Assembly (NCBI RefSeq): GCF_013426915.1
Contig: NZ_AP023180.1
Location: 2,108,001-2,172,000 of the forward strand
Direction of reading: 5' to 3'
Source: Paraburkholderia sp. PGU19
Lineage (GTDB): Bacteria > Pseudomonadota > Gammaproteobacteria > Burkholderiales > Burkholderiaceae
Length of the DNA: 64,000 bases
Shown here: piece after piece, positions 43,624 to 57,205 of the stretch
How the letters are laid out: each line of letters begins with the position of its first letter
Numbering within the stretch: the first letter of the stretch is position 1
The notes under the pieces: model-generated
Databases searched by the model: none
The model's input: the letters and a program-made list of their open reading frames with translations, nothing else
What the model was told of the DNA's origin: nothing
Made by a program: the position numbers and the translations under genes

Positions 43624-44527
43624 CTGTGCTTCCTTCAGTTCATGGGGCAATACGAGGCTTGAATACAAACGGACAAGCTATGCATGCCGCGTCCTGTACG
43701 AAGCAAGACCACTTAACTTGCCCGGTTTGGGGAAGCGCAAGTATAGAAAGGGACCCTAACTATCGATTGATATTCAAACTGGAAATGGTCTGTTTCCATA
43801 AAAGAAAGGAAAGACGCAGGGGATTGATTTGATTTGTATTTTTGGCTGGACTGGTTTTCGATTTTTTTATTGGTATAAATTTTAATGTTGTGATATGACA
43901 ACGAAGTTTGGCAGTGATTTATTTGAGATAAGCCATATATAAGAAATGGAAGCGATGCATTCGGCTAAAACAGCGGTTTCGGCTCGATGTGAATCGGTGG
44001 AAGGCCGTGAAATAGCGGGTAAGACGTCGGAGACGATTTCGTCAGAGTGTGTCATAAATCAAAATGTCAGTGAACTTTTTTGAGTGATTGAGATCGTCGA
44101 TGTAATTGAATTAATTTGAATTCGTCCACTATGAATATAGTTAAGGATTAGACGTATCACGCGGAAAATACGGATCTCAATCAAAGACAAATTTTTGCAA
44201 TTTAGCTATCCAGGAGAGCAGTGACATTATTTGGCAAAAATCAAGGCGGCGATTGAGCTTCAATCGCGATTGCGACGCGGACGATCTCGCGCTTCAACAT
44301 GTCATGCTCCTGCCTGATTGAAGATGTATCTTCCTCAGCAAGCGTTGTGCCATTTCCATCAGCGGAATGCCCATTCGCGCAGCAGACCTTTTCGCCCGCG
44401 TTGCCACTTTGCTAGACTGCCTTCGCCAGCAGATTCAAGCTTTGCTGCCATCGCCGCCGCGCCACCCGTCTCACGAAGTACGGCACCCCCGAACGCAGCG
44501 GCCCGACAACCGGAACACGGAGTCACC
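43624..44527. other. Long AT-rich intergenic region upstream of the porin
   Basis: About 900 bases separate the porin and YCII genes. From about 43740 to 44330 the sequence is strikingly AT-rich (for example GATTTTTTTATTGG), in contrast to flanking GC-rich coding DNA. I find no supportable gene, tRNA or small-RNA signature by eye. It probably houses porin regulation and may be bound by nucleoid proteins. An extended -10 (TGCTAGACT, 44410-44418) could serve the YCII gene at 44528. Confidence 0.5.
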
Positions 44528-44884
44528 ATGTCTTACATGCTGCTCATCGTCGAACCCACCGAGCAACGCGAGGAACGCGGCGAAGTCGCGGGTCGCGCCG
44601 TCTACGACCGCATGCTCAAATACCGCGCCGAGTTGCAGTCGCGCGGCCAGCTGATCGCCGCCGAATCGCTGTCGCCCAGCAAGAAGGGTGTGCGCCTCGA
44701 AAAGCGCGACGGGCAGACCCGCCTGATCGACGGGCCGTTTGCCGAAGCGAAGGAAATGATCGGCGGCTTCTTTCTGCTGAACGTCGATACCTACGAAGAA
44801 GCGCTCGCGCTCGCCAACGAATGTCCGGCCGCCGAGTGGTGCACCATCGAAGTCCGTAAGGTCGCGCCGTGCTACGAGTACTGA
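44528..44884 (+). CDS. YCII/DGPF-domain protein
   Basis: This 118-residue protein belongs to the YCII superfamily, with the DGPF signature in LIDGPFAEAKEMIGGFF. The fold is a ferredoxin-like barrel with a probable catalytic His/Asp pair in distant relatives; function is unknown. The long upstream frame is rejected because homology starts at MSYMLLIVEP. Genes of this type accompany ECF42 sigma factors, and an ECF42-type sigma gene lies 1 kb downstream. This copy lies upstream of the ECF42-type promoter signature at 44945, so it may be expressed separately. Confidence 0.88.
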   Translation: MSYMLLIVEPTEQREERGEVAGRAVYDRMLKYRAELQSRGQLIAAESLSPSKKGVRLEKRDGQTRLIDGPFAEAKEMIGGFFLLNVDTYEEALALANECPAAEWCTIEVRKVAPCYEY

Positions 44885-44944: not shown

Positions 44945-44971
44945 TGTCGATCTGACTGCGTGCCGCTCGTC
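44945..44971 (+). promoter_or_regulatory. ECF42-type promoter signature
   Basis: TGTCGA (44945-44950) and CGTC (44968-44971) are separated by exactly 17 bases, 52 bases before the YCII start codon at 45024. The two elements match my memory of the ECF42 consensus. The same spacing and flanks (TGTCGATCTGA ... CTCGTCGT) recur at 56052 before a VOC gene, which makes chance unlikely. Confidence 0.7.
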
Positions 44972-45023
44972 GTGGAAGTAGAAGCCGCCACGGGGCGTCC
45001 TTCATCCACGAGGAGAGACGGCG

Positions 45024-45437
45024 ATGCGATTCATGATCATGGTGAAGGCCACGGGCGACAGCGAGGCCGGCAAGATGCCGGACGAAGCACTGATGGCGTC
45101 GATGGCGACGTATCACGAAGCCTTGCAGAAGGCGGGCGTGCTACTCGACGCATCCGGCCTGCAGCCTAGCGCGAAGGGCTGGCGCGTGCGCTATGCGGGC
45201 GGCAGGCGCACCGTCACGGAAGGCCCGTTTGCGGAAACGAAAGAGCTGATCGCGGGCTACACCGTGATCCAGGTGCGATCGCGCGAAGAAGCGATGGAAT
45301 GGGCGCGACGCTTTCCCGCGCCGTTCGGCGAACAGGCCGACGGTGAAATCGAAGTTCGCCAGATGTTCGACCTCGACGACTTCGAGCCGAGCCAGTCGAC
45401 GGAACGCTTTCGCAAGATCGAAGGCGCGAACCACTGA
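45024..45437 (+). CDS. YCII/DGPF-domain protein
   Basis: This 137-residue second YCII-family protein carries TEGPFAETKELIAGY, a DGPF-like signature, and starts MRFMIMVKATGDSEAG. It is the first gene after the ECF42-type promoter and precedes the VOC and sigma genes in the same direction with short gaps. It is therefore the likely first gene of the sigma factor's own operon. A redox or detoxification role is suggested for the family but not demonstrated. Confidence 0.9.
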   Translation: MRFMIMVKATGDSEAGKMPDEALMASMATYHEALQKAGVLLDASGLQPSAKGWRVRYAGGRRTVTEGPFAETKELIAGYTVIQVRSREEAMEWARRFPAPFGEQADGEIEVRQMFDLDDFEPSQSTERFRKIEGANH

Positions 45438-45475
45438 CCTTGCATCTGTCACCTGCCAGCTTCCAAGGAACAATC

Positions 45476-45895
45476 ATGCACAAGCAAATCTATGTGAATC
45501 TCGCCGTGAACAGCGTGGAGAAATCGAAGGCGTTCTTCTCGCAACTCGGCTTCACGTTCGAACCGAAATTCACCAATGAGCAGGCGGCCTGCATGGTGAT
45601 CGGCGAAAACATCTACGCGATGCTGCTCGCGAAGGACTTTTTCCAGACCTTCACGAACAGGACGCTGTGCAATCCGAAGGAGAGCACAGAAGCGCTGATC
45701 TGCCTGTCGTGCGACAGCCGCTCGCAAGTCGACGATCTGGCCGATAAGGCGCTCGCCGCAGGCGGCGCGTTTTCGCGCCCGGCGCAAGACCACGGCTTCA
45801 TGTACGAGCGCAGCATCGAGGATATCGACGGGCATATCTGGGAACTCGTGTACATGGACCCGAACGCCGCGATGCCAGCGGCCGACGCGTCCTGA
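45476..45895 (+). CDS. VOC/glyoxalase-fold protein
   Basis: This 139-residue protein has the vicinal oxygen chelate fold of paired beta-alpha-beta-beta-beta units. Signatures are YVNLAVNSVEKSKAFFSQLGF and the C-terminal IEDIDGHIWELVYMD, whose Glu is a usual metal ligand. The ATG at 45476 follows AAGGAACAATC; a 12-codon extension upstream is ignored. It lies eight bases before the GTG of the sigma factor gene, so both are co-transcribed. Confidence 0.9.
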   Translation: MHKQIYVNLAVNSVEKSKAFFSQLGFTFEPKFTNEQAACMVIGENIYAMLLAKDFFQTFTNRTLCNPKESTEALICLSCDSRSQVDDLADKALAAGGAFSRPAQDHGFMYERSIEDIDGHIWELVYMDPNAAMPAADAS

Positions 45896-45903
45896 GGCCG
45901 GCC

Positions 45904-47196
45904 GTGACGACGGCTGCGACCCATCGTGCCATCGAGGCAGTCTGGCGGATCGAATCCGCGAAGGTCATCGCCCACGTCGCGCGGATCGTGCGCGATGTCG
46001 GCGTGGCGGAAGAACTCGCGCAGGACGCACTGGTGGCCGCGCTCGAAACCTGGCCGGACTCAGGGGTGCCCGACAATCCTGGAGCATGGCTGATGGCGAC
46101 GGCGAAAAACCGCGCGCTCGACCGCTGGCGCCAGGATGCGTTGCACGCGCGCAAGCACGAGGAACTCGGCGCCGACATGGACGCGCGCGAGGCGCATATC
46201 GTGCCCGATTTCGTCGATGCGCTCGACGCCGCGCGCGCCGACGACATTGGCGACGATCTGTTGCGGCTGGTGTTCACCGCCTGTCATCCCGTGCTGTCGA
46301 AGGACGCGCGTGTCGCGCTCACGTTGCGCCTGCTCGGCGGCCTGACGACGGATGAAATCGCGCGCGCGTTTCTTGTGCCCGAGCCGACCATCGCGCAGCG
46401 TATCGTGCGGGCCAAGAAGACGCTGTCGGCGGCAAAGGTGCCGTTCGAAGTACCGCAGGCGAACGATCGCGCGGTGCGGCTCGCGTCCGTGCTCGAAGTG
46501 ATTTACCTGATTTTCAACGAAGGCTATTCGGCGACGGCGGGCGACGACTGGATGCGCCCGACGCTGTGCGAGGAAGCGCTGCGCCTGGGCCGCGTGCTCG
46601 CGGGCCTGATGCCCGACGAAAGCGAAGTGCACGGCCTGGTCGCGCTGATGGAGATTCAGGCGTCGCGCATGCATGCGCGCGTCGATGCGCAAGGACGGCC
46701 CGTGCTGCTGCTCGATCAGGACCGCAGCCGTTGGGACCCGCTGCTGATCCGTCGCGGCCTGACCGCGCTTGCGCGTTCGGAAGCGCTCGGCGGGATGAGC
46801 GGTCAGTACACGCTGCAGGCCGCACTCGCCGCGTGCCATGCGCGCGCCCGCACGGCGGCGGAAACGGATTGGGCGCAGATCGTCGCACTCTACGATGCGC
46901 TCGCCGAGGTCGCGCCGTCGCCCGTGGTCGATCTGAACCGGGCGGTTGCCGTCGGCATGGCGTATGGCCCGATGGCCGCGCTCGAACTCGTCGAGGCCCT
47001 CGCCGACGAGCCTTCGCTGAAAAACTATCACTGGTTGCCGAGCGTGCGCGGCGATCTGCTCGCCAAGCTCGCTCGCAACGACGAAGCACGCGCGGAATTC
47101 GAGCGCGCCGCATCGATGACGCGCAACGCGCGCGAACGCGAACTGCTGCTCGAGCGCGCCCGCGAAATGGGCGGCGCGCCCGGACGCATGCAGTAG
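45904..47196 (+). CDS. ECF42-type sigma factor with C-terminal TPR-like extension
   Basis: This 430-residue protein contains sigma region 2 (VAEELAQDALVAALETWPD) and region 4 (LGGLTTDEIARAFLVPEPTIAQRIVRAKK). A long helical extension of about 240 residues follows, with IFNEGYSATAG and VVDLNRAVAVGMAYGP, which defines the ECF42 group. No anti-sigma factor is present; the extension probably controls activity. The start is GTG with GAGG upstream. The preceding YCII-YCII-VOC genes and the promoter at 44945 suggest autoregulation. Confidence 0.92.
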   Translation: MTTAATHRAIEAVWRIESAKVIAHVARIVRDVGVAEELAQDALVAALETWPDSGVPDNPGAWLMATAKNRALDRWRQDALHARKHEELGADMDAREAHIVPDFVDALDAARADDIGDDLLRLVFTACHPVLSKDARVALTLRLLGGLTTDEIARAFLVPEPTIAQRIVRAKKTLSAAKVPFEVPQANDRAVRLASVLEVIYLIFNEGYSATAGDDWMRPTLCEEALRLGRVLAGLMPDESEVHGLVALMEIQASRMHARVDAQGRPVLLLDQDRSRWDPLLIRRGLTALARSEALGGMSGQYTLQAALAACHARARTAAETDWAQIVALYDALAEVAPSPVVDLNRAVAVGMAYGPMAALELVEALADEPSLKNYHWLPSVRGDLLAKLARNDEARAEFERAASMTRNARERELLLERAREMGGAPGRMQ

Positions 47197-47212
47197 GCGT
47201 TCGCGGTTTGCT

Positions 47213-47389
47213 TTAGCTCGTCACGTGAGTGAGCAGCGAGCGCACGAACGGAATCGCATGCTCGCCCGCGACCATGCCGAGCAGGCCGAGCAGCGCGACG
47301 ATGGGCGGCGCGGGCGATTTCACATCGACGATGTTATAGAGCAGTCCGACGACGACCCCCGCCGCCAGCGACACGATATACGGCTTCAT
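47213..47389 (-). CDS. XapX domain membrane protein (58 residues)
   Basis: A 59-codon frame too short for most automatic calls encodes MKPYIVSLAAGVVVGLLYNI followed by VDVKSPAPPIVALLGLLGMVAGEH. This is a clear XapX (DUF1427) pattern, with two membrane helices separated by a Pro-rich turn. GGAG lies seven bases upstream of the ATG. It follows the quinone oxidoreductase gene by 31 bases on the same strand and converges with the sigma gene. The function of XapX proteins is unknown. Confidence 0.85.
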   Translation of the reverse strand: MKPYIVSLAAGVVVGLLYNIVDVKSPAPPIVALLGLLGMVAGEHAIPFVRSLLTHVTS

Positions 47390-47420
47390 ACGAGTCTCCG
47401 GTTGTAGTGATCGGGTTGCG

Positions 47421-48377
47421 TCACATCGTGATGACGACGCGTCCGCGCGTGCCGCCTGCGACGGCTGCGTAAGCGTCGCGTGCCTGTTCGAGCGGAAAGG
47501 TCTGCGCGATCGACGGCGCCTGCAACGCGCCGCTGTCGAACACGCTGGCCAGTTCCGTCATCAGACGCGCCGAATCCGCGACGCCGAGCTTGGCGCTGTC
47601 CGCGCCGAACAGTTGCGTCTCGTTGTGATAGAAGTCGATCAGGTCGAACTCGACGCGCCGCTTGCCCGTCGCGCTGATCTCGACCACGCGGCCGCGCCAC
47701 TTCGCGAGCTTCAGCGCCGTTTCGAACGCGACGCCGCCAACGGCGTCGTACACGACATCCGCGCCGCCGAGTGCCTTCACGCGTTCCGGGGCGTGTTCGT
47801 CGAACGGTACGTAGTGATCGAGCAGACGGCCCGCGGGCGAATCCGCATCGGGCTCGCGGCGATCGACGGCGATCACCTTGCAGCCACGCGACTTCGCGAT
47901 CTGCACGACCGCGCCGCCCACGCCGCCGCTCGCGCCGATCACGGCCACCGTTTCGCCCGCGACGAGCTGTGCATAATCGACGGCCCCGAGCCACGCGACC
48001 ACGAAGTTCACGCCGATCGCCGACGCCTGTTCGTGCGTAAGCGTGCGCGGCTTGCGCGACAGCGCGCCGACGGGAATCTTGATGAACTGCGCGTGTGTGC
48101 CGTCGCGCGTGAAGCCGATGTCGCCGCCCGTGCCCCATACTTCCGCGCCGATCCATTCGGCGGGGCCTTCCGTCACGACGCCGCTGAAGTCGCGGCCAGG
48201 GATGCGCGGCAGCGTCGTGTGGCCGAAATGGCCCGAGAGGTTTTTCACGTCGCTCGGATTCACCGAGGCTGCTTTCACCTGCACGATCGCGCTGTCGGCG
48301 TCGGCGGTGGGTGTCGGCAGATCGACGAGGTCGAGGACTTCGGGACCGCCAAAAGAGTTGAACTGGATCGCTTTCAT
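47421..48377 (-). CDS. Zinc-free quinone oxidoreductase-like dehydrogenase
   Basis: This 318-residue medium-chain dehydrogenase/reductase has an N-terminal catalytic fold (VNPSDVKNLSGHFG, PRIPGRDFSGVV) and a Rossmann domain with VIGASGGVGGAVVQIA. The structural-zinc cysteines of alcohol dehydrogenases are absent, placing it with NADPH quinone oxidoreductases. It probably reduces quinones or enones. It is transcribed with the downstream XapX gene and is divergent from the DUF429 gene. Confidence 0.92.
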   Translation of the reverse strand: MKAIQFNSFGGPEVLDLVDLPTPTADADSAIVQVKAASVNPSDVKNLSGHFGHTTLPRIPGRDFSGVVTEGPAEWIGAEVWGTGGDIGFTRDGTHAQFIKIPVGALSRKPRTLTHEQASAIGVNFVVAWLGAVDYAQLVAGETVAVIGASGGVGGAVVQIAKSRGCKVIAVDRREPDADSPAGRLLDHYVPFDEHAPERVKALGGADVVYDAVGGVAFETALKLAKWRGRVVEISATGKRRVEFDLIDFYHNETQLFGADSAKLGVADSARLMTELASVFDSGALQAPSIAQTFPLEQARDAYAAVAGGTRGRVVITM

Positions 48378-48556
48378 TGCCGCTCCTGCGGAAACTGTCG
48401 GATTCGATGGGTTTCGCTTGCCGCCTCACGATGGGTGAATCAGCGTATGAAGGCAGTCTAAGTGACCGGCGCGGCGTGGTTCAGACAAGTGCTTTCGAAT
48501 ATCGGACAGCGGGCGGCGCGGGTTCGGAACGATCAAACGGTTCGGGGAAACACGCG

Positions 48557-49288
48557 ATGCGTGAGAAAACAACAGACCTGGTGGGCGTGGACGGCTGTAA
48601 GGGCGGCTGGTACGCCGTCAGGCAGCACGGCCGGACGGGCGCCATCGAGACGCGAATCTGCGCGACGTTTGAGGCGTTGCTTGCGTGGGCGCCCGCGCCT
48701 GCCATCGTGGCCGTCGATATGCCGATCGGCCTGTCGTCGACGGGCTATCGCGCGTGCGATGCCGAAGCGAGGCAGCGTCTGAAATGGCCGCGCAGTGCGT
48801 CGGTGTTTCAGACGCCTGTGCGTCAGACGCTTGGTGTCAGGGAGTATCGAACGGCGTGCGATCTGAACCGCGAAGCAACGGGCAAGGGCATCTCGCAACA
48901 GGCCTTCAACATTCTCGGCAAGATCGCTGAAGTCGATACGTCGTTGCGTGCCAGCAATAGCGATGCTTCGCGTGTGTTCGAGGTGCATCCTGAGCTTGCC
49001 TTCATGCAGCTTCAGATCGAGCAAGGCGGTGAGGCGGCCGGGCTCAAGGAGGGCAAAACGTCGGAAGCGGGACACGCGAAAAGAAAAGCCTTGCTTGACC
49101 CCGTCTTCGGCGCCGGTCTAAAGACCGCGCTCGACGAACGCGTTGCCCGGCACGCGCAGAAAGACGACGTGCTCGATGCCTTTGCGGTGCTATGGAGCGC
49201 GCGCCGCATCGCGGCAGGCAGCGCCGTCATGCTGCCCGACGACGAACCGCGCGACAGCGCGCTTCTGCCGATGGTGATCCGCTACTGA
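48557..49288 (+). CDS. DUF429 predicted RNase H-fold protein
   Basis: This 243-residue protein belongs to DUF429, a family predicted to have an RNase H-like nuclease fold. Conserved acidic positions appear in LVGVDGCKGGW, VAVDMPIGL and HAQKDDVLDAFAVLW, at the usual spacing of such active sites. The biochemical role is unproven. The ATG at 48557 is used; a 60-codon frame extension upstream is of poor composition. It converges with the DUF1330 gene. Confidence 0.87.
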   Translation: MREKTTDLVGVDGCKGGWYAVRQHGRTGAIETRICATFEALLAWAPAPAIVAVDMPIGLSSTGYRACDAEARQRLKWPRSASVFQTPVRQTLGVREYRTACDLNREATGKGISQQAFNILGKIAEVDTSLRASNSDASRVFEVHPELAFMQLQIEQGGEAAGLKEGKTSEAGHAKRKALLDPVFGAGLKTALDERVARHAQKDDVLDAFAVLWSARRIAAGSAVMLPDDEPRDSALLPMVIRY

Positions 49289-49344
49289 GCGAACGTTGCG
49301 GCCCGCGCTGTTCCGCAACGTTTCAGCAACTCACGCCTAAAGAA

Positions 49345-49638
49345 TCACTCCGCGCCGCGCACGATGCGCAGATCGCGCTCGACGCCATTGCCGAGCGCCG
49401 CCAGCGCCTTCTTGTAGGCCTCACTGTCGTAGGCCGCGACGGCCTGCTCGTAGGTCGGGAATTCGATCACGACGGTGCGGTCCTTCAGGCCTTGTTCACG
49501 CACTTCCTCGGCGAGACCGCGCACAAGAAACTTGCCGCCCGCCGCCGTGACGGCCGGCAACGCCAGTTGTGCATATGCGGCCAGTGCCGCTGGATCGTTC
49601 GTCTTGCGGTAGAGAGTGACCCAGTATCCCTTGCTCAT
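49345..49638 (-). CDS. DUF1330 family protein
   Basis: This 97-residue protein has the ferredoxin-like dimeric alpha-beta barrel fold of DUF1330. Signatures are KGYWVTLYRK, a central GGKFLVRG strand, VVIEFPTYEQAVAAYDSEAY and a closing RDLRIVRG. Members are often stress-linked but without established activity. The ATG at 49638 is used because the 35-codon upstream extension is Arg-rich. It is single and convergent with DUF429. Confidence 0.9.
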   Translation of the reverse strand: MSKGYWVTLYRKTNDPAALAAYAQLALPAVTAAGGKFLVRGLAEEVREQGLKDRTVVIEFPTYEQAVAAYDSEAYKKALAALGNGVERDLRIVRGAE

Positions 49639-49776
49639 TTCACGTTTCCTCACGTTTAAGGTTTGGCCATGGCGACGCCAGCCGATCCATCCATCTGCCC
49701 GTCCGCGCCGCCGACGCCCACGATTCTCGCTCAAGCGCAGCAAGCGCGCTTGAGCGCGTCGCGACGCCCGACAGCC

Positions 49777-50580
49777 TCAGGACTTTAACGCAGCCGACGC
49801 GGCCAGCGTCGCGTGAGGATCGAAGTCGGTCGGCGGCGCGCCGAGTTCGCGGCGGAACATGTCGCTGAAACTGCTTGGCAGATAGCCGAGTTCGCGCGCG
49901 ATGGTGCTGACCGCGCGTCCTTCGGCGAGCCCCGACACGGCGACGGCCAGTTGCACCTGCCTGCGCCACTCCGCGAAACCGATACCCAGCGCCCGCGTGA
50001 AGAGCCGCGCGAGTGTGCGCACGCTCGCGCCCACCGACGCCGCATGCTGCTCGAAGCTGATCGCATTCGACGGATTGTCGATCACCGTGCGGCACAGCGC
50101 GTCGAGCCGCCGGTCCGAGGCATCGGGCAGCGGAATGCGCAGCGACGAGCGCGGCGCCTGTTCGAGTTCGAGCATGGCGAGCCGGTACGCCGTGCTCAGA
50201 TAGTCGTCGTCGCGCGTCTGTGCCGCTTCATGTTCGGCAATCGACGCAATCAGTTCGCGCAACAGGCCGTTGATCTCGAACACATCGCTGCGTGCGCTCA
50301 GATGGCCGATGCTGCGCTCATGGAAATACAGATTGCGCATCTCGACGTCGCTCATCATGTGGATCGAGTGCTCGGTGCCGGCGGGCAGCCACACGGCGCG
50401 CTGCGGCGGAACGACGAGCGCCTCGTGCCCGGCTTCGACCCACATCACACCCGACACGGCATACAGCACCTGCGCCCACGTGTGCGAATGCGGGTCGATG
50501 CGCAGCCCGCGCGGATAGTGCCGCGCGAGCGAATGGCCTTTGTCTGCGTCATGCAGGGCGGGTGGCGTCGCTTGTGTCAT
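49777..50580 (-). CDS. AraC family transcription regulator
   Basis: This 267-residue protein has an N-terminal cupin sensor (HSHTWAQVLYAVSGVMWVEAG, then PAGTEHSIHM) and a C-terminal pair of helix-turn-helix motifs (SVRTLARLFTRALGIGFAEW; STIARELGYLPSSFSDMFRRELG). The effector is unknown. It is divergent from the YXWGXW gene at 50779, a possible target, and reads towards the DUF1330 gene. The ATG at 50580 lacks an obvious ribosome-binding site. Confidence 0.92.
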   Translation of the reverse strand: MTQATPPALHDADKGHSLARHYPRGLRIDPHSHTWAQVLYAVSGVMWVEAGHEALVVPPQRAVWLPAGTEHSIHMMSDVEMRNLYFHERSIGHLSARSDVFEINGLLRELIASIAEHEAAQTRDDDYLSTAYRLAMLELEQAPRSSLRIPLPDASDRRLDALCRTVIDNPSNAISFEQHAASVGASVRTLARLFTRALGIGFAEWRRQVQLAVAVSGLAEGRAVSTIARELGYLPSSFSDMFRRELGAPPTDFDPHATLAASAALKS

Positions 50581-50778
50581 CGGTCAGTGCGTGTCCTGGC
50601 GAGGCTTGCGGTCCGTGTGAAGTTCAGCCTTGACGATACCCATTCCCCCGCGCGTGCGCCACCGCACCCGTTGGTCCCTCGCGGCCGCGAAAAATCTTGC
50701 GACGGATTTTCGCGGCCCGCGCGTTTAACCCCTAAACCGGCGCATTCGAGACCGGCAACCGTTCCAAGGGAAAGCGCA

Positions 50779-51081
50779 ATGAAGATGCAAAAACTGGTCC
50801 GCATGCTTGCGGCAGGCGTGGTCGCGCTGAGCGCCTCGGCGGCGTTCGCGCAGGCGGTAATCGTCGCGCCGATGGCGCCGCCCGCCGCGCGCGTCGAAGT
50901 CGTGCCGCCGCCGCGCGCCGGCTACGCGTGGGACCCGGGCCACTGGCGCTGGGCGGATGGCCGCTACGTGTGGGTGGCGGGGCACTGGCAGACCATGCGT
51001 CCGGGCTATCGCTGGGTGCCTGGACATTGGGTCGCGCATGGTCCGAACTGGCGCTGGGTGCCCGCGCACTGGGTGAGCTGA
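50779..51081 (+). CDS. YXWGXW repeat-containing secreted protein
   Basis: This 100-residue protein has a signal peptide (QKLVRMLAAGVVALSASAAFA) and then a Pro-rich stretch leading into YXWGXW-type repeats: DPGHWRWADGRYVWVAGHW, WVPGHWVAHG and WVPAHW. These aromatic repeats are common in small periplasmic or surface proteins of proteobacteria and are of unknown function. The true start is the ATG at 50779; the much longer frame upstream runs through the AraC gene. A similar lipoprotein lies at 55779, bracketing the sigma/DUF1800/DUF1501 cluster. Confidence 0.85.
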   Translation: MKMQKLVRMLAAGVVALSASAAFAQAVIVAPMAPPAARVEVVPPPRAGYAWDPGHWRWADGRYVWVAGHWQTMRPGYRWVPGHWVAHGPNWRWVPAHWVS

Positions 51082-51104
51082 ACTTGGCGACGGGAGACTG
51101 AAAG

Positions 51105-51209
51105 ATGAAGAAGCTGTTGTTACTGGCGTTGTTTATCGCGACGCTCGCGGGTTGCGTGGTGGTGCCGGCGCACCCTTACTACTATCGGCCGGCCGTCGTC
51201 GTATATTGA
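51105..51209 (+). CDS. Tiny lipoprotein (34 residues)
   Basis: A 35-codon frame below usual length cutoffs encodes KKLLLLALFIATLAGCVVV, then a Tyr-rich tail PYYYRPAVVVY. The signal sequence and lipobox LAGC are convincing, with lipidation at Cys17, leaving an 18-residue mature peptide. A GGAG lies nine bases upstream of the ATG. It follows the YXWGXW gene by 23 bases on the same strand, so both are probably one transcript. Function unknown; it may be a small envelope anchor. Confidence 0.75.
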   Translation: MKKLLLLALFIATLAGCVVVPAHPYYYRPAVVVY

Positions 51210-51333
51210 ACTGCCTTGAACAGGGGTTGACGGAGCGCATCGCGGAGTTCGCGGTGTTCCTGTGAAGGTGAAGTCACTCGATCAGAACAACAGGGAGCGA
51301 CAGCAGTGACGACAGCACATCTCGTCGCGACAG

Positions 51334-51356
51334 ATGCCGCGCGTGACACGCGGCAT
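51334..51356. promoter_or_regulatory. 8-bp inverted repeat upstream of the ECF sigma gene
   Basis: ATGCCGCG (51334-51341) and CGCGGCAT (51349-51356) enclose seven bases. The repeat lies 36 bases before the TTG of the sigma gene and could be an operator or a leader hairpin. No T run follows. Confidence 0.4.
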
Positions 51357-51391
51357 GCGTGCAATAGGCGGCATACCCGGAGCCGCGCGCG

Positions 51392-51958
51392 TTGAACGAA
51401 CGCGATCCGGATGCGGAACTGGTGGCGGGCGTCGGCAGGCAGGAGCCGGCGGCCGTTCGCACGCTCGTCGCGCGCAAGTTGCCGCGTCTGCTGGCGCTCG
51501 CCACGCGGATGCTGGGAGATCGTATGGAAGCGGAAGACGTCGCGCAGGAAGCCTTCATGCGCATCTGGAAGCAGGCGCCGCGCTGGCGCGAGGGTGAGGC
51601 GCGTTTCGATACATGGCTGCATCGCGTCGCGCTGAATCTCTGCTATGACCGTTTGCGCGCACATCGTGAGGAGCCCGCCGACGAACTGCCCGACGCCGTC
51701 GATCCCGCCGCCACGCCCGATGCGCAACTCGAAGCGCAGTCGCGCGAGGCACGGGTGCGCGCGGCGCTCGCCGCGTTGCCGGCGCGCCAGCGCGAGGCGC
51801 TAGTGCTCAACTACTACCAGGAACTGTCGAACATCGAGGCGGCCGCGCTGATGGGCATTACCGTCGACGCGCTCGAAAGCCTGCTGGCCCGCGCGCGCCG
51901 CAATCTGCGCGCGCAACTGACGGGCGACGATCTTGCCGGAACGAGGACCAGCCGATGA
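51392..51958 (+). CDS. ECF sigma factor
   Basis: This 188-residue protein has sigma region 2 (RMLGDRMEAEDVAQEAFMRIW) and region 4 (LPARQREALVLNYYQELSNIEAAALMGITVDALE), the minimal two-domain ECF layout. The start is TTG with GGAG ten bases upstream; the first ATG would truncate region 2. The stop overlaps the next gene's ATG, which encodes a membrane protein fitting an anti-sigma role. The order sigma, anti-sigma, periplasmic sensor suggests envelope or metal stress signalling. Confidence 0.93.
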   Translation: MNERDPDAELVAGVGRQEPAAVRTLVARKLPRLLALATRMLGDRMEAEDVAQEAFMRIWKQAPRWREGEARFDTWLHRVALNLCYDRLRAHREEPADELPDAVDPAATPDAQLEAQSREARVRAALAALPARQREALVLNYYQELSNIEAAALMGITVDALESLLARARRNLRAQLTGDDLAGTRTSR

Positions 51959-52425
51959 CTCCAGAAAGATTTCGCGCAATAGTCGATGCGTATGGCGCCG
52001 AGGCGCGCCATTGGCCCGAAGCGGAGCGCGCCGCCGCGAGCGCGTGGGCCGCGCAGCATCGCAGCGAGGTGGACGCGCTGCTCGCGCAGGCCGCGCAACT
52101 CGACGCATGGCTCGCGAGCGATGCCGCCGCGACCGATATGGCGCCGGACGCCGCGCTCATCGAGCGCGTGATGGCTTCGGCGCCCGCTAACCGTCGATCG
52201 CGTCGACCGCGCCGGCTGTCGTTGATCTGGCCGGGCGGCGGCTCGGGGCGCGCGGGCTGGTGGTGGTCGGGCGCGGCGTTCGCGGGCGTTGGTTTGATCG
52301 GCGGATTGGCGGGCGCATTCGCGGTGTCGTTCTTCCTCGTGACGGGCAACCCGTCTCCGGGACCGGAGTCTTCGTATCTGACAACTGGATTTGGCGGCAC
52401 GGCCGCAGACTGGAGTGACGAATGA
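51955..52425 (+). CDS. Putative anti-sigma factor (single membrane helix)
   Basis: This 156-residue protein has an Ala-rich helical cytosolic part (PERFRAIVDAYGAEARHWPE), one membrane helix around residues 105-128 (SGAAFAGVGLIGGLAGAF) and a short periplasmic tail. No zinc-binding HxxxCxxC motif is present, so it is not a canonical ZAS protein. Its role is inferred from overlap with both neighbours (four bases on each side) and from topology. It likely sequesters the ECF sigma factor until the periplasmic partner signals. Confidence 0.7.
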   Translation: MTPERFRAIVDAYGAEARHWPEAERAAASAWAAQHRSEVDALLAQAAQLDAWLASDAAATDMAPDAALIERVMASAPANRRSRRPRRLSLIWPGGGSGRAGWWWSGAAFAGVGLIGGLAGAFAVSFFLVTGNPSPGPESSYLTTGFGGTAADWSDE

Positions 52426-52931
52426 GCGGACGCGCCTGGAAATTTCTGTTGGTCGGCTCGCTGGTGCTCAACGTGTTTCTGATTGGCGGCGTCGCGGGCG
52501 GCGCGTATCAGTGGTTCGTCGCGCATGGCGGCGTGACGGCCGCCAGTCAACCACAGCCGCGCGCGCTGCGATTCGCGGCGGAAGGGTTGTCGGCGGAGCG
52601 CCAGCAGCAGTTCGTCGATGCCTTGAAGGACGCGCGCCGCGAAGCGCGCGAGTACGCGCGTGACGGGCGAGAGGATCGGCGCGAGGTACTGCGGCTGCTA
52701 GCCGCGCCGCAGCTGGACCGCGCGGCGCTCGATGTCGCACTGAACCGCACGCGCGAAGCCGATATCGCGCTGCGCTCGCGGGTCGAGCAAAGCGTCGCCG
52801 ATTTCGCGGCGACCTTGTCGCCCGATGAACGCGTGAAGTTCGCGGAAGGCTTGCGCGAGCGCGGGCAATGGCGGCTCGCGCAGGCGCAGCAGCGCGTGCA
52901 GAAGCCGGGCAATCAGCCCGCGAGCGACTGA
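52422..52931 (+). CDS. Periplasmic sensor-like protein (CnrX/Spy-type fold)
   Basis: This 169-residue protein has an N-terminal membrane anchor (KFLLVGSLVLNVFLIGGVAGG) and a periplasmic four-helix region rich in Arg/Glu, with ALRFAAEGLSAERQQQFVDAL and TLSPDERVKFAEGL. This resembles the heavy-metal-resistance/CnrX and CpxP-like families. I see no cluster of His, Met or Cys ligands, so metal binding is doubtful. Its start overlaps the putative anti-sigma gene by four bases. Together the three genes form a likely transmembrane signalling module. Confidence 0.78.
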   Translation: MSGRAWKFLLVGSLVLNVFLIGGVAGGAYQWFVAHGGVTAASQPQPRALRFAAEGLSAERQQQFVDALKDARREAREYARDGREDRREVLRLLAAPQLDRAALDVALNRTREADIALRSRVEQSVADFAATLSPDERVKFAEGLRERGQWRLAQAQQRVQKPGNQPASD

Positions 52932-53024
52932 TCGGCCGCGACTGAAAAAGCAGCGACGGAAAAGCGCCGCTCACTCCGTTTAATGCACATCGAACCACGC
53001 ACGACAGGCGAGACAGGAGCGAGC

Positions 53025-54554
53025 ATGGCCAATTCACCTGCAACTACGGCGCCGCCGTTGAGCGCCGCCGCGATCGCGCTGAACCGCTTCGGTCTCGGCG
53101 CGCGCGCCGACGAAGCGCCACCGGTGAACCCGAAGAACTGGCTGCTCGCGCAGTTCGACGCCTATCAGCCGATGCCCGCGGCATGGGCTGCGCAACTGAC
53201 ATCGCTGGCGATTGCTGCGGATCTGGCCGACGAACGCCAGCAGGCGATAGCAAACACCGCAACCAACGCAACGAACGCCACCGCGAGCGGCGCGAATGCC
53301 GCCAGCGCGCCGAACCTCGCCAGCAACGCGGATGACGCGCGCAAAGCCGCCCGTCAGGCCGCGAACAAGGCGCAGCGCATGGAAGCGCGCGACACGTACC
53401 GCGCAGCCGTGAACGCGCGTGTCGCGAGTGCGCTGACGACGCCCGCGCCGTTCGTCGAACGGCTCGTGCACTTCTGGTCGAATCACTTCGCGGTTTCCAT
53501 CGACAAAGGCCGCGTCGCGCCGTTCGCCGGCGCATTCGAAGCGGAGGCGATCCGCCCGCACGTGCTCGGGCGCTTCGAAGACATGCTGGTGGCCGTCGAG
53601 CGTCATCCCGCGATGCAGCTTTTTCTCGACCAGACGCGCTCGGTCGGACCCGACAGCGTCGCCGCGTTGCGCGCCGCGCAGCGCAATCCGAACCGCAAGC
53701 CCGGACTCAATGAAAACCTCGCGCGCGAGATCATGGAGCTGCATACGCTCGGGGTGCGCAGTGGCTACACGCAGGACGACGTCACCGAGTTCGCGCGCGC
53801 CATGACGGGCTGGAGCATTGCGGCCGTGCAAGGCCCGCAGGCGAACAACGCAAACAGCGCAAACGCGAACGCCGCGCCGCCGGGTGCGTTCATGTTCCGT
53901 CCGCAATTGCACGAGCCGGGCACACGGACCATCATGGGCCGCCGCTACGACCAGCCGGGCGAAGGGCAAACGCTCGCGGTGCTGCACGATCTGTCGAGCG
54001 CGCCCGCCACCGCGACGCATATCGCGACCAAGCTCGCGCGCCACTTCGTCGCGGACAATCCGCCGCCCGATGTAGTCGACCAGCTGGCGACAGCCTTCAT
54101 GCGAAGCAGCGGCGATCTGCCCACGGTCTATCGCGCGCTGATCGACAGTGACGCCGCGTGGTCGCCCGTTGCCGTCAAGTTCAAGTCGCCCTGGGAATGG
54201 ACGGTTTCGTCGATGCGCGGCCTCGGCATGCACAACCTGAACGACGGCGCGAACACCGTGCAGATGGCGCCCGTGCTGACGCAACTTGGTCAGCAGGTGT
54301 GGCGCCCCGGCTCGCCGGCCGGCTATGACGATATCGCCGCGAGCTGGGCCGCGCCCGATGCGCTCGTGCGGCGTGTCGAGATCGCGCAGCGTTTCGCGGC
54401 GCGCGTCGGTGATCGGCTCGATGCGCGCTCGCTGGGGCAGACGCTGACGGCAGGTTCGCTGAGCGAGCCGACGCAGCTCGCCGTGTCGCGTGCGGAAAGC
54501 GCATCGACGGCGCTCGCGCTGCTGCTCGTCTCGCCCGATTTCCAACGGAGATGA
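53025..54554 (+). CDS. DUF1800 family protein
   Basis: This 509-residue protein matches DUF1800, whose core includes AALNRFGLGA-like AIALNRFGLGARADE, VERLVHFWSNHFAVS, NENLAREIMELHTLGVRSGY and FARAMTGWS. Two Asn/Ala-rich inserts (about residues 82-110 and 273-285) look disordered. No signal peptide is evident. I prefer the ATG at 53025 with AGGAGC upstream over 52983. It overlaps the DUF1501 gene by four bases; this pairing is widespread in bacteria and of unknown function, perhaps in surface or matrix assembly. Confidence 0.9.
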   Translation: MANSPATTAPPLSAAAIALNRFGLGARADEAPPVNPKNWLLAQFDAYQPMPAAWAAQLTSLAIAADLADERQQAIANTATNATNATASGANAASAPNLASNADDARKAARQAANKAQRMEARDTYRAAVNARVASALTTPAPFVERLVHFWSNHFAVSIDKGRVAPFAGAFEAEAIRPHVLGRFEDMLVAVERHPAMQLFLDQTRSVGPDSVAALRAAQRNPNRKPGLNENLAREIMELHTLGVRSGYTQDDVTEFARAMTGWSIAAVQGPQANNANSANANAAPPGAFMFRPQLHEPGTRTIMGRRYDQPGEGQTLAVLHDLSSAPATATHIATKLARHFVADNPPPDVVDQLATAFMRSSGDLPTVYRALIDSDAAWSPVAVKFKSPWEWTVSSMRGLGMHNLNDGANTVQMAPVLTQLGQQVWRPGSPAGYDDIAASWAAPDALVRRVEIAQRFAARVGDRLDARSLGQTLTAGSLSEPTQLAVSRAESASTALALLLVSPDFQRR

Positions 54555-55717
54555 CCATGCTCACTCGCCGCAGTTTCGTGCGCATCGCAGCCGCTGGCGC
54601 GGGCGCGATGCTCGTCGCGCCGCAGATCGTGTTCGCGCGCGCTGCGACCGACCGCCGCTTCGTGTTCGTGATCCAGCGCGGCGCCGCCGACGGGCTGAAC
54701 ATCGTCGTGCCGTACGCGGACCCTGCGTATTCGACATTGCGTGGCGCGCTGACCGTCGATACGTCGGCTTCGACGAAGCTCGACGGCACGTTCGCGCTGC
54801 ATCCGTCGCTCGTGCAGATCGGGCAGATGTACGGGCGGCGCGAGGCGCTGTTTGTGCACGCCGTCGCGTCGCCGTATCGCGACCGGTCGCATTTCGACGG
54901 ACAGAACGTGCTGGAGACGGGCGGATCTTCCGCGTATCAGGTGAAGGATGGCTGGCTCAACCGGCTCGTCGGCATGATGCCGGGCGCAACGTCGACGACG
55001 CCCGAGAACGCGATCGCGTTCGCGCCAACCGTGCCGATGGCGTTGCGCGGTGCGGCGAACGTCGCGTCGTATGCGCCTTCCGGGCTGCCGCAGGCGCCCG
55101 ACGATCTGCTCGCGCGCGTTTCGCAACTCTACGAACAGGACGCGCAATTGCGTCCGCTGTGGGAATCGGCGATGGCGGCGCGCGGTCTCGCGGGCGATGC
55201 GGGCGCGCGCCAGGACCCGGCGAGTCTCGGCAAGCTGGCGGCCGGGTTTCTGTCGCGCGAAGACGGGCCGCGCATTGCGATGATCGAAACGGGCGGCTGG
55301 GACACGCATAGCGCGCAGATGCCGCGCCTCGCCGCCCAACTCAGGGCGCTCGACACGATGCTCGCTGCATTACGCGACGGACTCGGACCGGCGTGGAACA
55401 AGACGACGGTGCTGGTCGCCACCGAATTCGGCCGCACTGCTGCGGCGAATGGGACGGGCGGCACGGATCACGGCACGGCATCCGTCGCGATGGTGATCGG
55501 CGGCGCGGTGGCGGGCGGGCGCGTGGTCGCCGACTGGCCGGGCTTGCGGCAAGGCGATCTGTACCAGGCGCGCGACCTGAAGCCGACGGCGTCGCTCGAC
55601 GCGCTGATTACGGGCGTCGCGAGCGAAAGCCTCGGGCTCGATCCGCACCGGACTTCGCGCACGCTGTTCGCGCAAGCGGGCAGCGTGCAGCCGATGACGG
55701 GCCTGATTCGCGTGTAG
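54551..55717 (+). CDS. DUF1501 family protein with Tat-like signal
   Basis: This 388-residue protein starts MTMLTRRSFVRIAAAGAGAM, a twin-arginine signal, so it is probably exported folded. The body belongs to DUF1501, related to the sulfatase/alkaline phosphatase superfamily, with FVIQRGAADGLN near the N terminus, ETGGWDTHSAQ and TEFGRTAAANGTGGTDHG towards the C terminus, which would hold metal ligands. No activity is established. It overlaps the DUF1800 gene and precedes a YXWGXW lipoprotein. Confidence 0.92.
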   Translation: MTMLTRRSFVRIAAAGAGAMLVAPQIVFARAATDRRFVFVIQRGAADGLNIVVPYADPAYSTLRGALTVDTSASTKLDGTFALHPSLVQIGQMYGRREALFVHAVASPYRDRSHFDGQNVLETGGSSAYQVKDGWLNRLVGMMPGATSTTPENAIAFAPTVPMALRGAANVASYAPSGLPQAPDDLLARVSQLYEQDAQLRPLWESAMAARGLAGDAGARQDPASLGKLAAGFLSREDGPRIAMIETGGWDTHSAQMPRLAAQLRALDTMLAALRDGLGPAWNKTTVLVATEFGRTAAANGTGGTDHGTASVAMVIGGAVAGGRVVADWPGLRQGDLYQARDLKPTASLDALITGVASESLGLDPHRTSRTLFAQAGSVQPMTGLIRV

Positions 55718-55778
55718 GCCGCGCGAGCCGATTTAACAATCGAGCCAACAACCAGTCAACAGGGAGATGAACTCGACA

Positions 55779-56012
55779 ATGAATGGTCTGAACCTGAAAT
55801 CAACGACACTGCGCGCGCTGCTCGCGGCCACGCTCTGCGCATCGACGCTTTCCGCCTGCTATGTCGTCGAGCCCGCGCGGCCGGCGCAGCCCGCGCCCGT
55901 CGCGGAGGTCATACCTGCGGCGCCTGCGCCGGGATATCGGTGGGTGAAGGGTCACTATCGCTGGGAGGGCAATCACTGGGCATGGGTGCCGGGACACTGG
56001 CGGCCCGTTTGA
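55779..56012 (+). CDS. YXWGXW repeat-containing lipoprotein
   Basis: This 77-residue protein has a lipoprotein signal (LLAATLCASTLSAC; acylated Cys about 27), a Pro/Ala linker and YXWGXW repeats (YRWVKGHYRW, HWAWVPGHWRP). The frame also offers an ATG at 55767, but that abuts the AGGGAG ribosome-binding site, so 55779 is preferred. It follows the DUF1501 gene by about 60 bases and likely belongs to the same transcript. It resembles the protein at 50779. Confidence 0.82.
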   Translation: MNGLNLKSTTLRALLAATLCASTLSACYVVEPARPAQPAPVAEVIPAAPAPGYRWVKGHYRWEGNHWAWVPGHWRPV

Positions 56013-56051
56013 CCGCGTCCGATCCGGTTCGGAAAAAATATCGGTTGCGCG

Positions 56052-56078
56052 TGTCGATCTGAAGATGGCTCACTCGTC
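56052..56078 (+). promoter_or_regulatory. ECF42-type promoter signature (second copy)
   Basis: TGTCGA (56052-56057) and CGTC (56075-56078) with a 17-base spacer, 71 bases before the VOC gene at 56150. It shares TGTCGATCTGA and CTCGTCGT flanks with the site at 44945, while the spacer centre differs. It is probably read by the ECF42-type sigma factor encoded at 45904. Confidence 0.68.
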
Positions 56079-56149
56079 GTAGTGGTGAAGACTCGCTTAT
56101 CGGGCGAAACTTCGTCACCCATGAAACTCTTCACATCAGGAGACACGAC

Positions 56150-56635
56150 ATGTCCACGCCAGCCGTCAAGCCCATCCCCGAAGGGATGCACACGTTGACA
56201 CCGCACATCATCGTCGCGGGCGCGGCCGAAGCAATCGAGTTCTACAAGAAAGCGTTCAATGCAGTCGAGCAGGTGCGCCTGCCCGGTCCCGGCGGCAAGA
56301 TAATGCACGCGTCGCTGAAAATCGGCGATTCGACGCTGATGCTGGTCGATGAAATGCCCGATTGCGGCAACGGCGCGTCGTTCGGGCCGAAGGCGCTGAA
56401 GGGCACGCCTGTCGTGCTGCATCTGTACGTCAACGACGCTGACGCCACCATCGCACAGGCGGCGTCAGCGGGCGCGAAGGTCATCATGCCCGCGACCGAT
56501 ATGTTCTGGGGCGACCGTTACGGCCAGGTCGAAGATCCGTTCGGCCACCGCTGGTCCGTCGCGACGCACACGCGCGACGTCACGCCCGACGAAATGAAAT
56601 CGGCGATGGAGCAGATGGCGCAAGGCCGTCAATAA
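56150..56635 (+). CDS. VOC/PhnB-like protein
   Basis: This 161-residue glyoxalase-fold protein shows LTPHIIVAGAAEAIEFYKKAF, MHASLKIGDSTLML and the C-terminal GDRYGQVEDPFGHRWSVATH. That last segment is typical of PhnB-like VOC proteins. The metal-ligand set is incomplete by eye, so catalysis is uncertain. The ATG at 56150 follows AGGAGACACGAC. Its promoter carries the ECF42-type signature, and VOC proteins are frequent ECF42 partners, so it is probably part of that regulon. Another VOC gene follows 93 bases downstream. Confidence 0.9.
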   Translation: MSTPAVKPIPEGMHTLTPHIIVAGAAEAIEFYKKAFNAVEQVRLPGPGGKIMHASLKIGDSTLMLVDEMPDCGNGASFGPKALKGTPVVLHLYVNDADATIAQAASAGAKVIMPATDMFWGDRYGQVEDPFGHRWSVATHTRDVTPDEMKSAMEQMAQGRQ

Positions 56636-56728: not shown

Positions 56729-57205
56729 ATGGACAAGATTGCCACGTGCCTGTGGTTCGACGGCAATGCGGAGGAAGCCGTCCGGTTCTACACGGGCATC
56801 TTCGGGGATTCGAGCATCGGCGACATCACGCATTACGGCGAGTCGATGCCCGGCAAGGCGGGTGAAGTGCTGACGATCACCTTCCATCTGGAAGGCCGCG
56901 AATTCCTCGCGTTGAACGGCGGCCCGCAGTACACGTTTTCTCCGGCGATTTCGATGTTCGTGAAGTGCGAATCGCAAGAGGAAGTCGACGCGTTGTGGGA
57001 CGGGCTGCTCGAAGGCGGCGGCTCGCCAGTGCAATGCGGCTGGCTGACGGACCGCTTCGGCGTGTCGTGGCAGATCGTGCCGACCGCGATGATGAAGTTT
57101 CTGACGGACAAGGATCAGACGAAGGTTCAGCGCGCGATGCAGGCCATGATGCAAATGGTGAAGCTCGATGTGAAGGCGCTCGAAGCGGCTTTCAACGGGC
57201 AGTGA
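56729..57205 (+). CDS. VOC family protein (PhnB/3-dmu-9 type)
   Basis: This 158-residue protein belongs to the 3-demethylubiquinone-9-methyltransferase-like VOC group: KIATCLWFDGNAEEAVRFYT, GREFLALNGGPQYTFSPAIS and CGWLTDRFGVSWQIVP are typical. Despite the family name, methyltransferase activity is not expected from this fold. The ATG at 56729 has AAGGAGATGTG upstream. It lies in the same direction as the preceding VOC gene and may be co-transcribed from the ECF42-type promoter. Confidence 0.92.
   Translation: MDKIATCLWFDGNAEEAVRFYTGIFGDSSIGDITHYGESMPGKAGEVLTITFHLEGREFLALNGGPQYTFSPAISMFVKCESQEEVDALWDGLLEGGGSPVQCGWLTDRFGVSWQIVPTAMMKFLTDKDQTKVQRAMQAMMQMVKLDVKALEAAFNGQ

Follow-up and report, generated by a model that had tools for sequence, protein, structure and literature searches.

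The 64,000-nucleotide stretch of Paraburkholderia sp. PGU19 analysed here (contig NZ_AP023180.1, positions 2,108,001 to 2,172,000 of the forward strand; hereafter the window) carries two closely similar sites, about 11 kb apart, which are very likely the -35/-10 promoters of an extracytoplasmic function (ECF) sigma factor of the ECF42 type encoded at 45904-47196, and which would represent two of about seven targets of this sigma factor in the genome. Site 1, on the + strand at 44945-44973, has the structure TGTCGATCTGA-N12-CTCGTCGT (reading TGTCGATCTGACTGCGTGCCGCTCGTCGT from 44945) and ends 50 nt upstream of the ATG of a YCII-family gene at 45024; site 2, likewise on the + strand at 56052-56080, repeats the structure TGTCGATCTGA-N12-CTCGTCGT (reading TGTCGATCTGAAGATGGCTCACTCGTCGT from 56052) and ends 69 nt upstream of the ATG of a VOC (glyoxalase-fold) gene at 56150. 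Both conform to TGTCGAT-N16-CGTCGT, and the paired TGTCGA-N17-CGTC elements at 44945 and 56052 that the initial annotation of this DNA had reported are confirmed by the sequence. The assignment of site 1 draws on motif searches, placement and the operons of relatives, and that of site 2 on motif searches and placement.

Raw motif counts were rejected as evidence. The 11.25-Mb genome holds 14 copies of TGTCGA-N17-CGTCGT, compared with 14 at a spacer of 16 and 22 at a spacer of 18, and since spacer 17 is no commoner than its neighbours, frequency as such does not argue for a promoter; in the window, the loose pattern TGTCGA-N14..20-CGTC occurs 11 times against 2.74 expected, with only two of the 11 at spacer 17. 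Placement gives a different picture. When one mechanical gene-start rule was applied to 22 of the 36 spacer-16 and spacer-18 sites and to 13 of the 14 spacer-17 sites, none of the former and eight of the latter lay at a gene start (Fisher p = 5e-5; one of the eight, L058, lies inside a gene), and among the spacer-17 sites with T at position 7 the proportion rose to seven of eight, compared with 0/22 for the shifted spacers (Fisher p = 4e-6). Counted without regard to position, the loose motif is at random frequency genome-wide, which the initial annotation had named as an outcome that would refute its proposal; the placement of the motif, however, is far from random.

The genome-wide scan that had been proposed, with a listing of downstream genes, returned eight exact copies of TGTCGAT-N16-CGTCGT, seven of which precede YCII, VOC, GST, DUF1428, RibD_C or MFS genes. 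In addition to the two sites in the window, the first before YCII gene 2, a VOC gene and the sigma gene and the second before a VOC and a PhnB-like gene, these comprise sites before an orphan YCII gene (C2:1442234), a GST gene followed by DUF899 (C2:761612), a DUF1428 gene (C2:1350684) and a RibD_C gene (C3:1021443), as well as a site about 1.1 kb past the window end (C2:2173109-2173137), with an MFS transporter gene 99 nt downstream. None of the 22 one-mismatch sites compared with the target proteins, out of 32 in the genome, matched a target. The regulon of YCII and VOC proteins first envisaged does include both families; it is too narrow, given the GST, DUF1428, RibD_C and MFS genes in this genome and the AHSA1, DUF899, GNAT and SnoaL genes in relatives.

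The 117 genomes examined within the genus together hold 574 copies of TGTCGAT-N16-CGTCGT, compared with an average of 374.5 for spacers longer or shorter by one and 18 for the reversed pattern. A sample of 100 of these 574 sites, from 19 genomes (98 in listing order, with nine sites from three genomes skipped, then two more), was inspected for downstream genes, with family names assigned by Pfam on representatives and by BLAST clustering for the remainder. In this sample, 82 sites precede a gene from one of 11 families: YCII (30), VOC (11), GST (8), AHSA1 (8), DUF899 (7), DUF1428 (5), PhnB-like (4), MFS (3), RibD_C (3), GNAT (2) and SnoaL (1). The distance from site to start codon, measured for 77 of the 82, ranges from 17 to 124 nt with a median of 58. 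The VOC type encoded at 56150 accounts for 11 of the 100 sites, and at 7 of 12 genus sites this gene is followed by one for a full-length relative of the PhnB-like protein, and a further site has a fragment of it. The exact motif was retained, although TGTCGAA variants such as those at L211 and L212 escape it. In the wider family, 92 genomes out of 200 carry at least one site and represent 12 of 25 genera, with several per genome in genera g10, g12, g14, g17 and g25, and with g3, g11, g13 and g24 among those with few or none; in g10 and g12 together, 33 of 47 distinct readable sites (locus L272 not included) precede the same gene families.

Alignment of 96 targets (seven from this genome, the 82 of the sample and seven from G008, a genome treated below) reveals T or C at position 8, T at position 23 (85%), T at position 35 (72%) and a purine at position 36 (A 57%, G 34%), together with an A-rich stretch 15-18 bases upstream of the motif. 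Because these conserved bases lie outside the search pattern, they count against chance. The purine at position 36 recurs in 55 of the 56 sites that precede a YCII gene in the cross-phylum set of ECF42 loci, and by our own count the mapped start of Sinorhizobium meliloti SMc01149, on which two methods agreed (PMC6180224, Table 1 and its footnote), falls at the same motif position. From these two observations, transcription is predicted to start at A44980, a conserved purine after T, and at G56087, both on the + strand and nine bases after CGTC, about 2 nt from the start seven bases after CGTC that the initial annotation had expected.

The putative regulator, encoded on the + strand at 45904-47196, carries sigma2 and sigma4 domains (Sigma70_r2 at 40.4 bits and Sigma70_r4_2 at 41.1 bits, both above the Pfam cut-off), also scores above the cut-off of the NCBIfam sigma70-ECF model, and continues through DUF6596 into a C-terminal extension of about 200 residues for which an AlphaFold2 model and TPR matches indicate a TPR-type fold. 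Its closest named relative, from Paraburkholderia caribensis, is 97% identical. Two YCII genes lie beside it in the window, as in the type-1 loci (those of this sigma type) of all 20 relatives, and among 80 ECF42 loci drawn from many phyla out of 366 relatives, 74 have a YCII gene no more than 3 kb upstream. The promoter combines TGTCGA with CG[AT]C, the pattern that the 2018 work of Liu et al. is said to give for ECF42. By its domains, modelled TPR-like tail, YCII neighbours and promoter, the protein is assigned to the ECF42 type, as the initial annotation had held. The absence of an anti-sigma factor is likewise borne out, as no candidate was found in the operon or directly beside it by Pfam or hydrophobicity, the membrane-like protein encoded at 51955 following a different ECF gene.

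The genes behind site 1 were largely as described beforehand: Pfam identifies YCII gene 2 (45024-45437, +; an EGPF variant, 70.8 bits), the first gene behind the promoter, and then a VOC gene (45476-45895, +; Glyoxalase 33.2 bits) ahead of the sigma gene. An additional YCII gene with a DGPF motif (YCII gene 1, 44531-44884, +; 59.5 bits) lies upstream of the promoter. The supposed VOC gene pair behind site 2 begins with a VOC gene (56150-56635, +; Glyoxalase 66 bits), while its probable second member (56729-57205, +) encodes a 3-dmu-9_3-mt (PhnB-like) protein (157.3 bits). The order YCII gene 1, promoter, YCII gene 2, sigma gene holds in 20 of 20 type-1 loci of relatives, two of them with TGTCGAA instead, and the VOC gene is present in 19. 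In seven of the 20 (L202, L203, L207, L214, L216, L217 and L219), roughly 650-700 bases separate YCII gene 2 from the VOC gene, leaving room for a gene of about 600 bases. No ECF42-type motif precedes YCII gene 1 in 14 upstream regions (the window and 13 relatives), and TAGACT, a sequence resembling a housekeeping -10 element (44413-44418, +, in the window), appears by eye in 12 of the 14 aligned regions. YCII gene 1 therefore probably has an expression of its own, while the sigma factor would drive the genes from YCII gene 2 onward.

At 54 of the 80 cross-phylum ECF42 loci, TGTCGA-N17-CG[TA]C stands before the YCII gene, compared with 0-10 loci for each of the other spacers from 10 to 24. In some phyla (for example L310, L311, L329 and L338) a -10 element CGAC replaces CGTC with the -35 element unchanged, the third base being A in 32 and T in 24 of 56 sites. 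At five of the 80 loci (L316, L327, L328, L343 and L350), a relative of the VOC protein encoded at 56150, with 61-65% identity, adjoins the YCII gene near the sigma gene, which provides independent support for that protein as an ECF42 partner; at the Duganella-type loci L327, L328 and L350, where it stands beside YCII, the motif itself was not found by the search rule.

The genome encodes two sigma factors with the ECF42-like domain PF20239, type 1 in the window and type 2 on contig 3, and the distribution of sites supports a tie between the motif and type 1 rather than its paralogue. Split by score, 107 of the 117 genomes carry a type-1 gene, three carry type 2 only and seven carry neither; a second search of these ten exceptions with the window protein returned matches of 37-39% identity in three and only distant ECF-like matches in seven. 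Genomes with type 1 have 5.24 sites on average (n=107) versus 1.3 in those without (n=10), or 0.67 when G008 is excluded, while off-spacer motifs are equally frequent per spacer in both groups (3.21 and 3.05). Site number is associated with type-1 presence at p = 1.3e-5 in a Mann-Whitney test that ignores relatedness, and the three type-2-only genomes have 0, 1 and 0 sites. Type-2 operons carry a different element, TGTCC(G/A)-N17-CGTC, in all 20 fetched, followed by eye by ATT, with 81-84 nt from promoter start to YCII ATG in 18 and 114 nt in one (one ATG could not be placed); in many of the operons at L180-L199 and L033, TGTCCR-N17-CGTCATT also follows closely on a T-rich tract. In the PGU19 genome the exact TGTCCR-N17-CGTCATT occurs once, before the type-2 operon, and the two circuits therefore look insulated from each other. 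The two proteins are 37% identical and differ in the helix of region 4 likely to read the -35 element (TIAQRIVRAKK in type 1, AMSKRLVRAKN in type 2), which may cause the promoter difference.

Several observations weigh against reading the two sites as promoters of the ECF42-type sigma factor, and they bear on the alternatives in different ways. The case from this organism rests on sequence comparison, from which transcription is deduced; the eighth exact site is located where an FtsH-like gene ends; 18 of the 100 sampled sites have no target gene, among them all six copies of a recurring site, TGTCGATGTCATCGCCGG(G/T)TTGCCGTCGT, and all three sites sampled from sigma-less genomes; the strict motif is missing at 26 of the 80 cross-phylum loci; and the 20 operons of relatives were drawn from genomes that had been selected by their sites, which makes that sample not blind. 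Bare counts that do not exceed those of spacer-shifted motifs in this genome would also fit a chance resemblance between two GC-rich 29-mers in 64 kb of DNA that share no regulator, yet such a coincidence is scarcely credible given the gene-start placement of seven of eight sites against 0 of 22, the recurrence of the same families behind 82 of 100 sites in relatives and the conservation of bases outside the searched pattern. More serious is genome G008 (5.2 Mb), the main counter-result: it has seven exact sites before target-type genes (L164, L167 and L169-L173), and neither profile nor window-protein searches found an ECF42 gene in its assembly, while an 11-kb DNA query from the sigma region of a relative, a query type that is uninformative here, gave no match. 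A recent loss of the sigma gene or an assembly gap would explain this, but it also fits reading of the sites by another sigma factor, be it the type-2 paralogue, an ECF41-type protein or the ECF encoded at 51392, the more so as CGTC-like -10 elements are common to ECF promoters and TGTCACA and CGTC are the elements shown for an S. meliloti ECF41 target promoter (PMC6180224). Even so, on a survey of the two ECF42 types across the genomes, another reader is very improbable, as site number tracks type 1, type-2-only genomes are nearly devoid of sites, all 20 type-2 operons have a promoter of their own, and ECF42 loci of other phyla show the same motif before YCII genes.

A bipartite conserved site could in itself be the operator of a transcription factor, and a promoter deduced from comparisons leaves some room for that view; an operator is nevertheless extremely unlikely here, with two halves that form no inverted repeat, a spacer fixed at 17, a T-purine initiator at the distance of the mapped S. 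meliloti start, and agreement with the ECF42 pattern as seen in TGTCGG-N17-CGTC at two S. meliloti targets (PMC6180224). The autoregulation predicted in the initial annotation stands as a hypothesis. The dispersed regulon could be real and the sigma operon not autoregulated in practice, with the level of the sigma factor set by the housekeeping promoter and its activity by the tail, and in keeping with this, overexpressed S. meliloti RpoE10, itself an ECF42 protein, did not raise its own YCII gene or induce the YCII-sigma operon (PMC6180224), and the housekeeping-like -10 element upstream of YCII gene 1 is conserved. Such a regulon lacking feedback is nonetheless unlikely, since site 1 matches the full consensus and its position is shared by all 20 relatives compared, and since sigma loci of many phyla repeat a promoter motif before YCII (54/80).

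On the reading of both sites as ECF42-type promoters, the following course of events is envisaged. A housekeeping-like promoter would drive YCII gene 1, and a small amount of sigma factor would come from read-through. A signal, perhaps a protein or ligand acting on the TPR-like tail as in published ECF42 models, would activate the sigma factor, which with RNA polymerase would read TGTCGAT-N16-CGTCGT and start transcription at the purine nine bases after CGTC. Transcription of YCII gene 2, the VOC gene and the sigma gene would provide positive feedback, and the distant operons (VOC/PhnB-like, orphan YCII, GST, DUF1428, RibD_C and MFS transporter) would be induced alongside, giving a dispersed response that, judging by the gene families, appears detoxification-like. 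The second ECF42 paralogue, with its own promoter TGTCCR-N17-CGTCATT, would run a separate circuit.

A bolder proposal, which we consider possible rather than probable, is that in several genera of the family one ECF42 sigma factor controls, as a hub, dispersed genes of 11 families, several of them uncharacterised, directed against stress of the electrophile or xenobiotic type. This regulon would be switched by the two tandem YCII genes on either side of the promoter, gene 1 being constitutive and perhaps a sensor or inhibitor of the TPR tail and gene 2 taking part in the feedback loop, and a few bases of the -35 element and the -10 flank would keep it insulated from a second ECF42 that serves only itself. 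If this holds, several DUF families could be assigned to a common process through the promoter they share.

The interval between site 1 and site 2 contains a block (51392-55717) comprising a different ECF gene (51392-51958), a gene for a membrane-like protein (from 51955), and genes for a Metal_resist protein (52422), DUF1800 (52983) and DUF1501 (54551), which looks like a separate ECF/anti-sigma system. A scan for sigma70 promoters and terminators was uninformative, with one promoter-like site versus 2.2 expected and 11 terminator-like sites versus 13.2 expected.

In Streptomyces venezuelae, ECF42 proteins, as reportedly described by Liu et al. in 2018 and Wu et al. in 2019, have a TPR-rich tail and a YCII (DGPF) partner, and their described targets are said to be the DGPF operons themselves. 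Compared with this picture, the targets here are dispersed over several families, and two paralogues use different promoters. The S. venezuelae factors Sven_0747, Sven_4377 and Sven_7131 are named in PMC8999054. More generally, the accounts of the group in PMC8999054, PMC9023288, PMC8103513 and PMC6180224 describe ECF42 by its TPR tail, its YCII neighbours and the lack of a known anti-sigma factor, and the C-terminal extension is needed for activity in other members (PMC8999054). The window system resembles S. meliloti RpoE10, as described in PMC6180224, in its long sigma factor with a TPR tail, its YCII neighbour, the absence of an anti-sigma factor and its glyoxalase-like targets. It differs in the -35 element, which is TGTCGG in the two S. 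meliloti promoters and TGTCGA here, and in breadth, with six induced genes, glyoxalase-like ones included, for RpoE10 versus about seven target sites here with GST, MFS, DUF1428 and RibD_C genes. Pseudomonas putida ECF-10 belongs to the same ECF42 group and has a similar gene context (PMC6180224), and its knockout showed stress, antibiotic and biofilm phenotypes (Tettmann et al. 2014, via PMC8999054 and PMC6180224). Limited literature listings contained no ECF42 regulon from Burkholderiaceae.

The type of switch is thus already known, and here it reaches more kinds of genes than in the published examples compared; very probably, the sigma factor turns on a set of small detoxification-like enzymes together. 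ECF42 sigma factors are widely distributed, and the passages devoted to them in the reviews name no signal. A promoter sharp enough to list targets provides a ready regulon and a reporter with which to screen for an inducer, and the presence in one cell of two paralogues that differ in their promoters offers a natural test case for the divergence of ECF specificity. The shared promoter would place DUF1428, DUF899, YCII and other uncharacterised families in one response.

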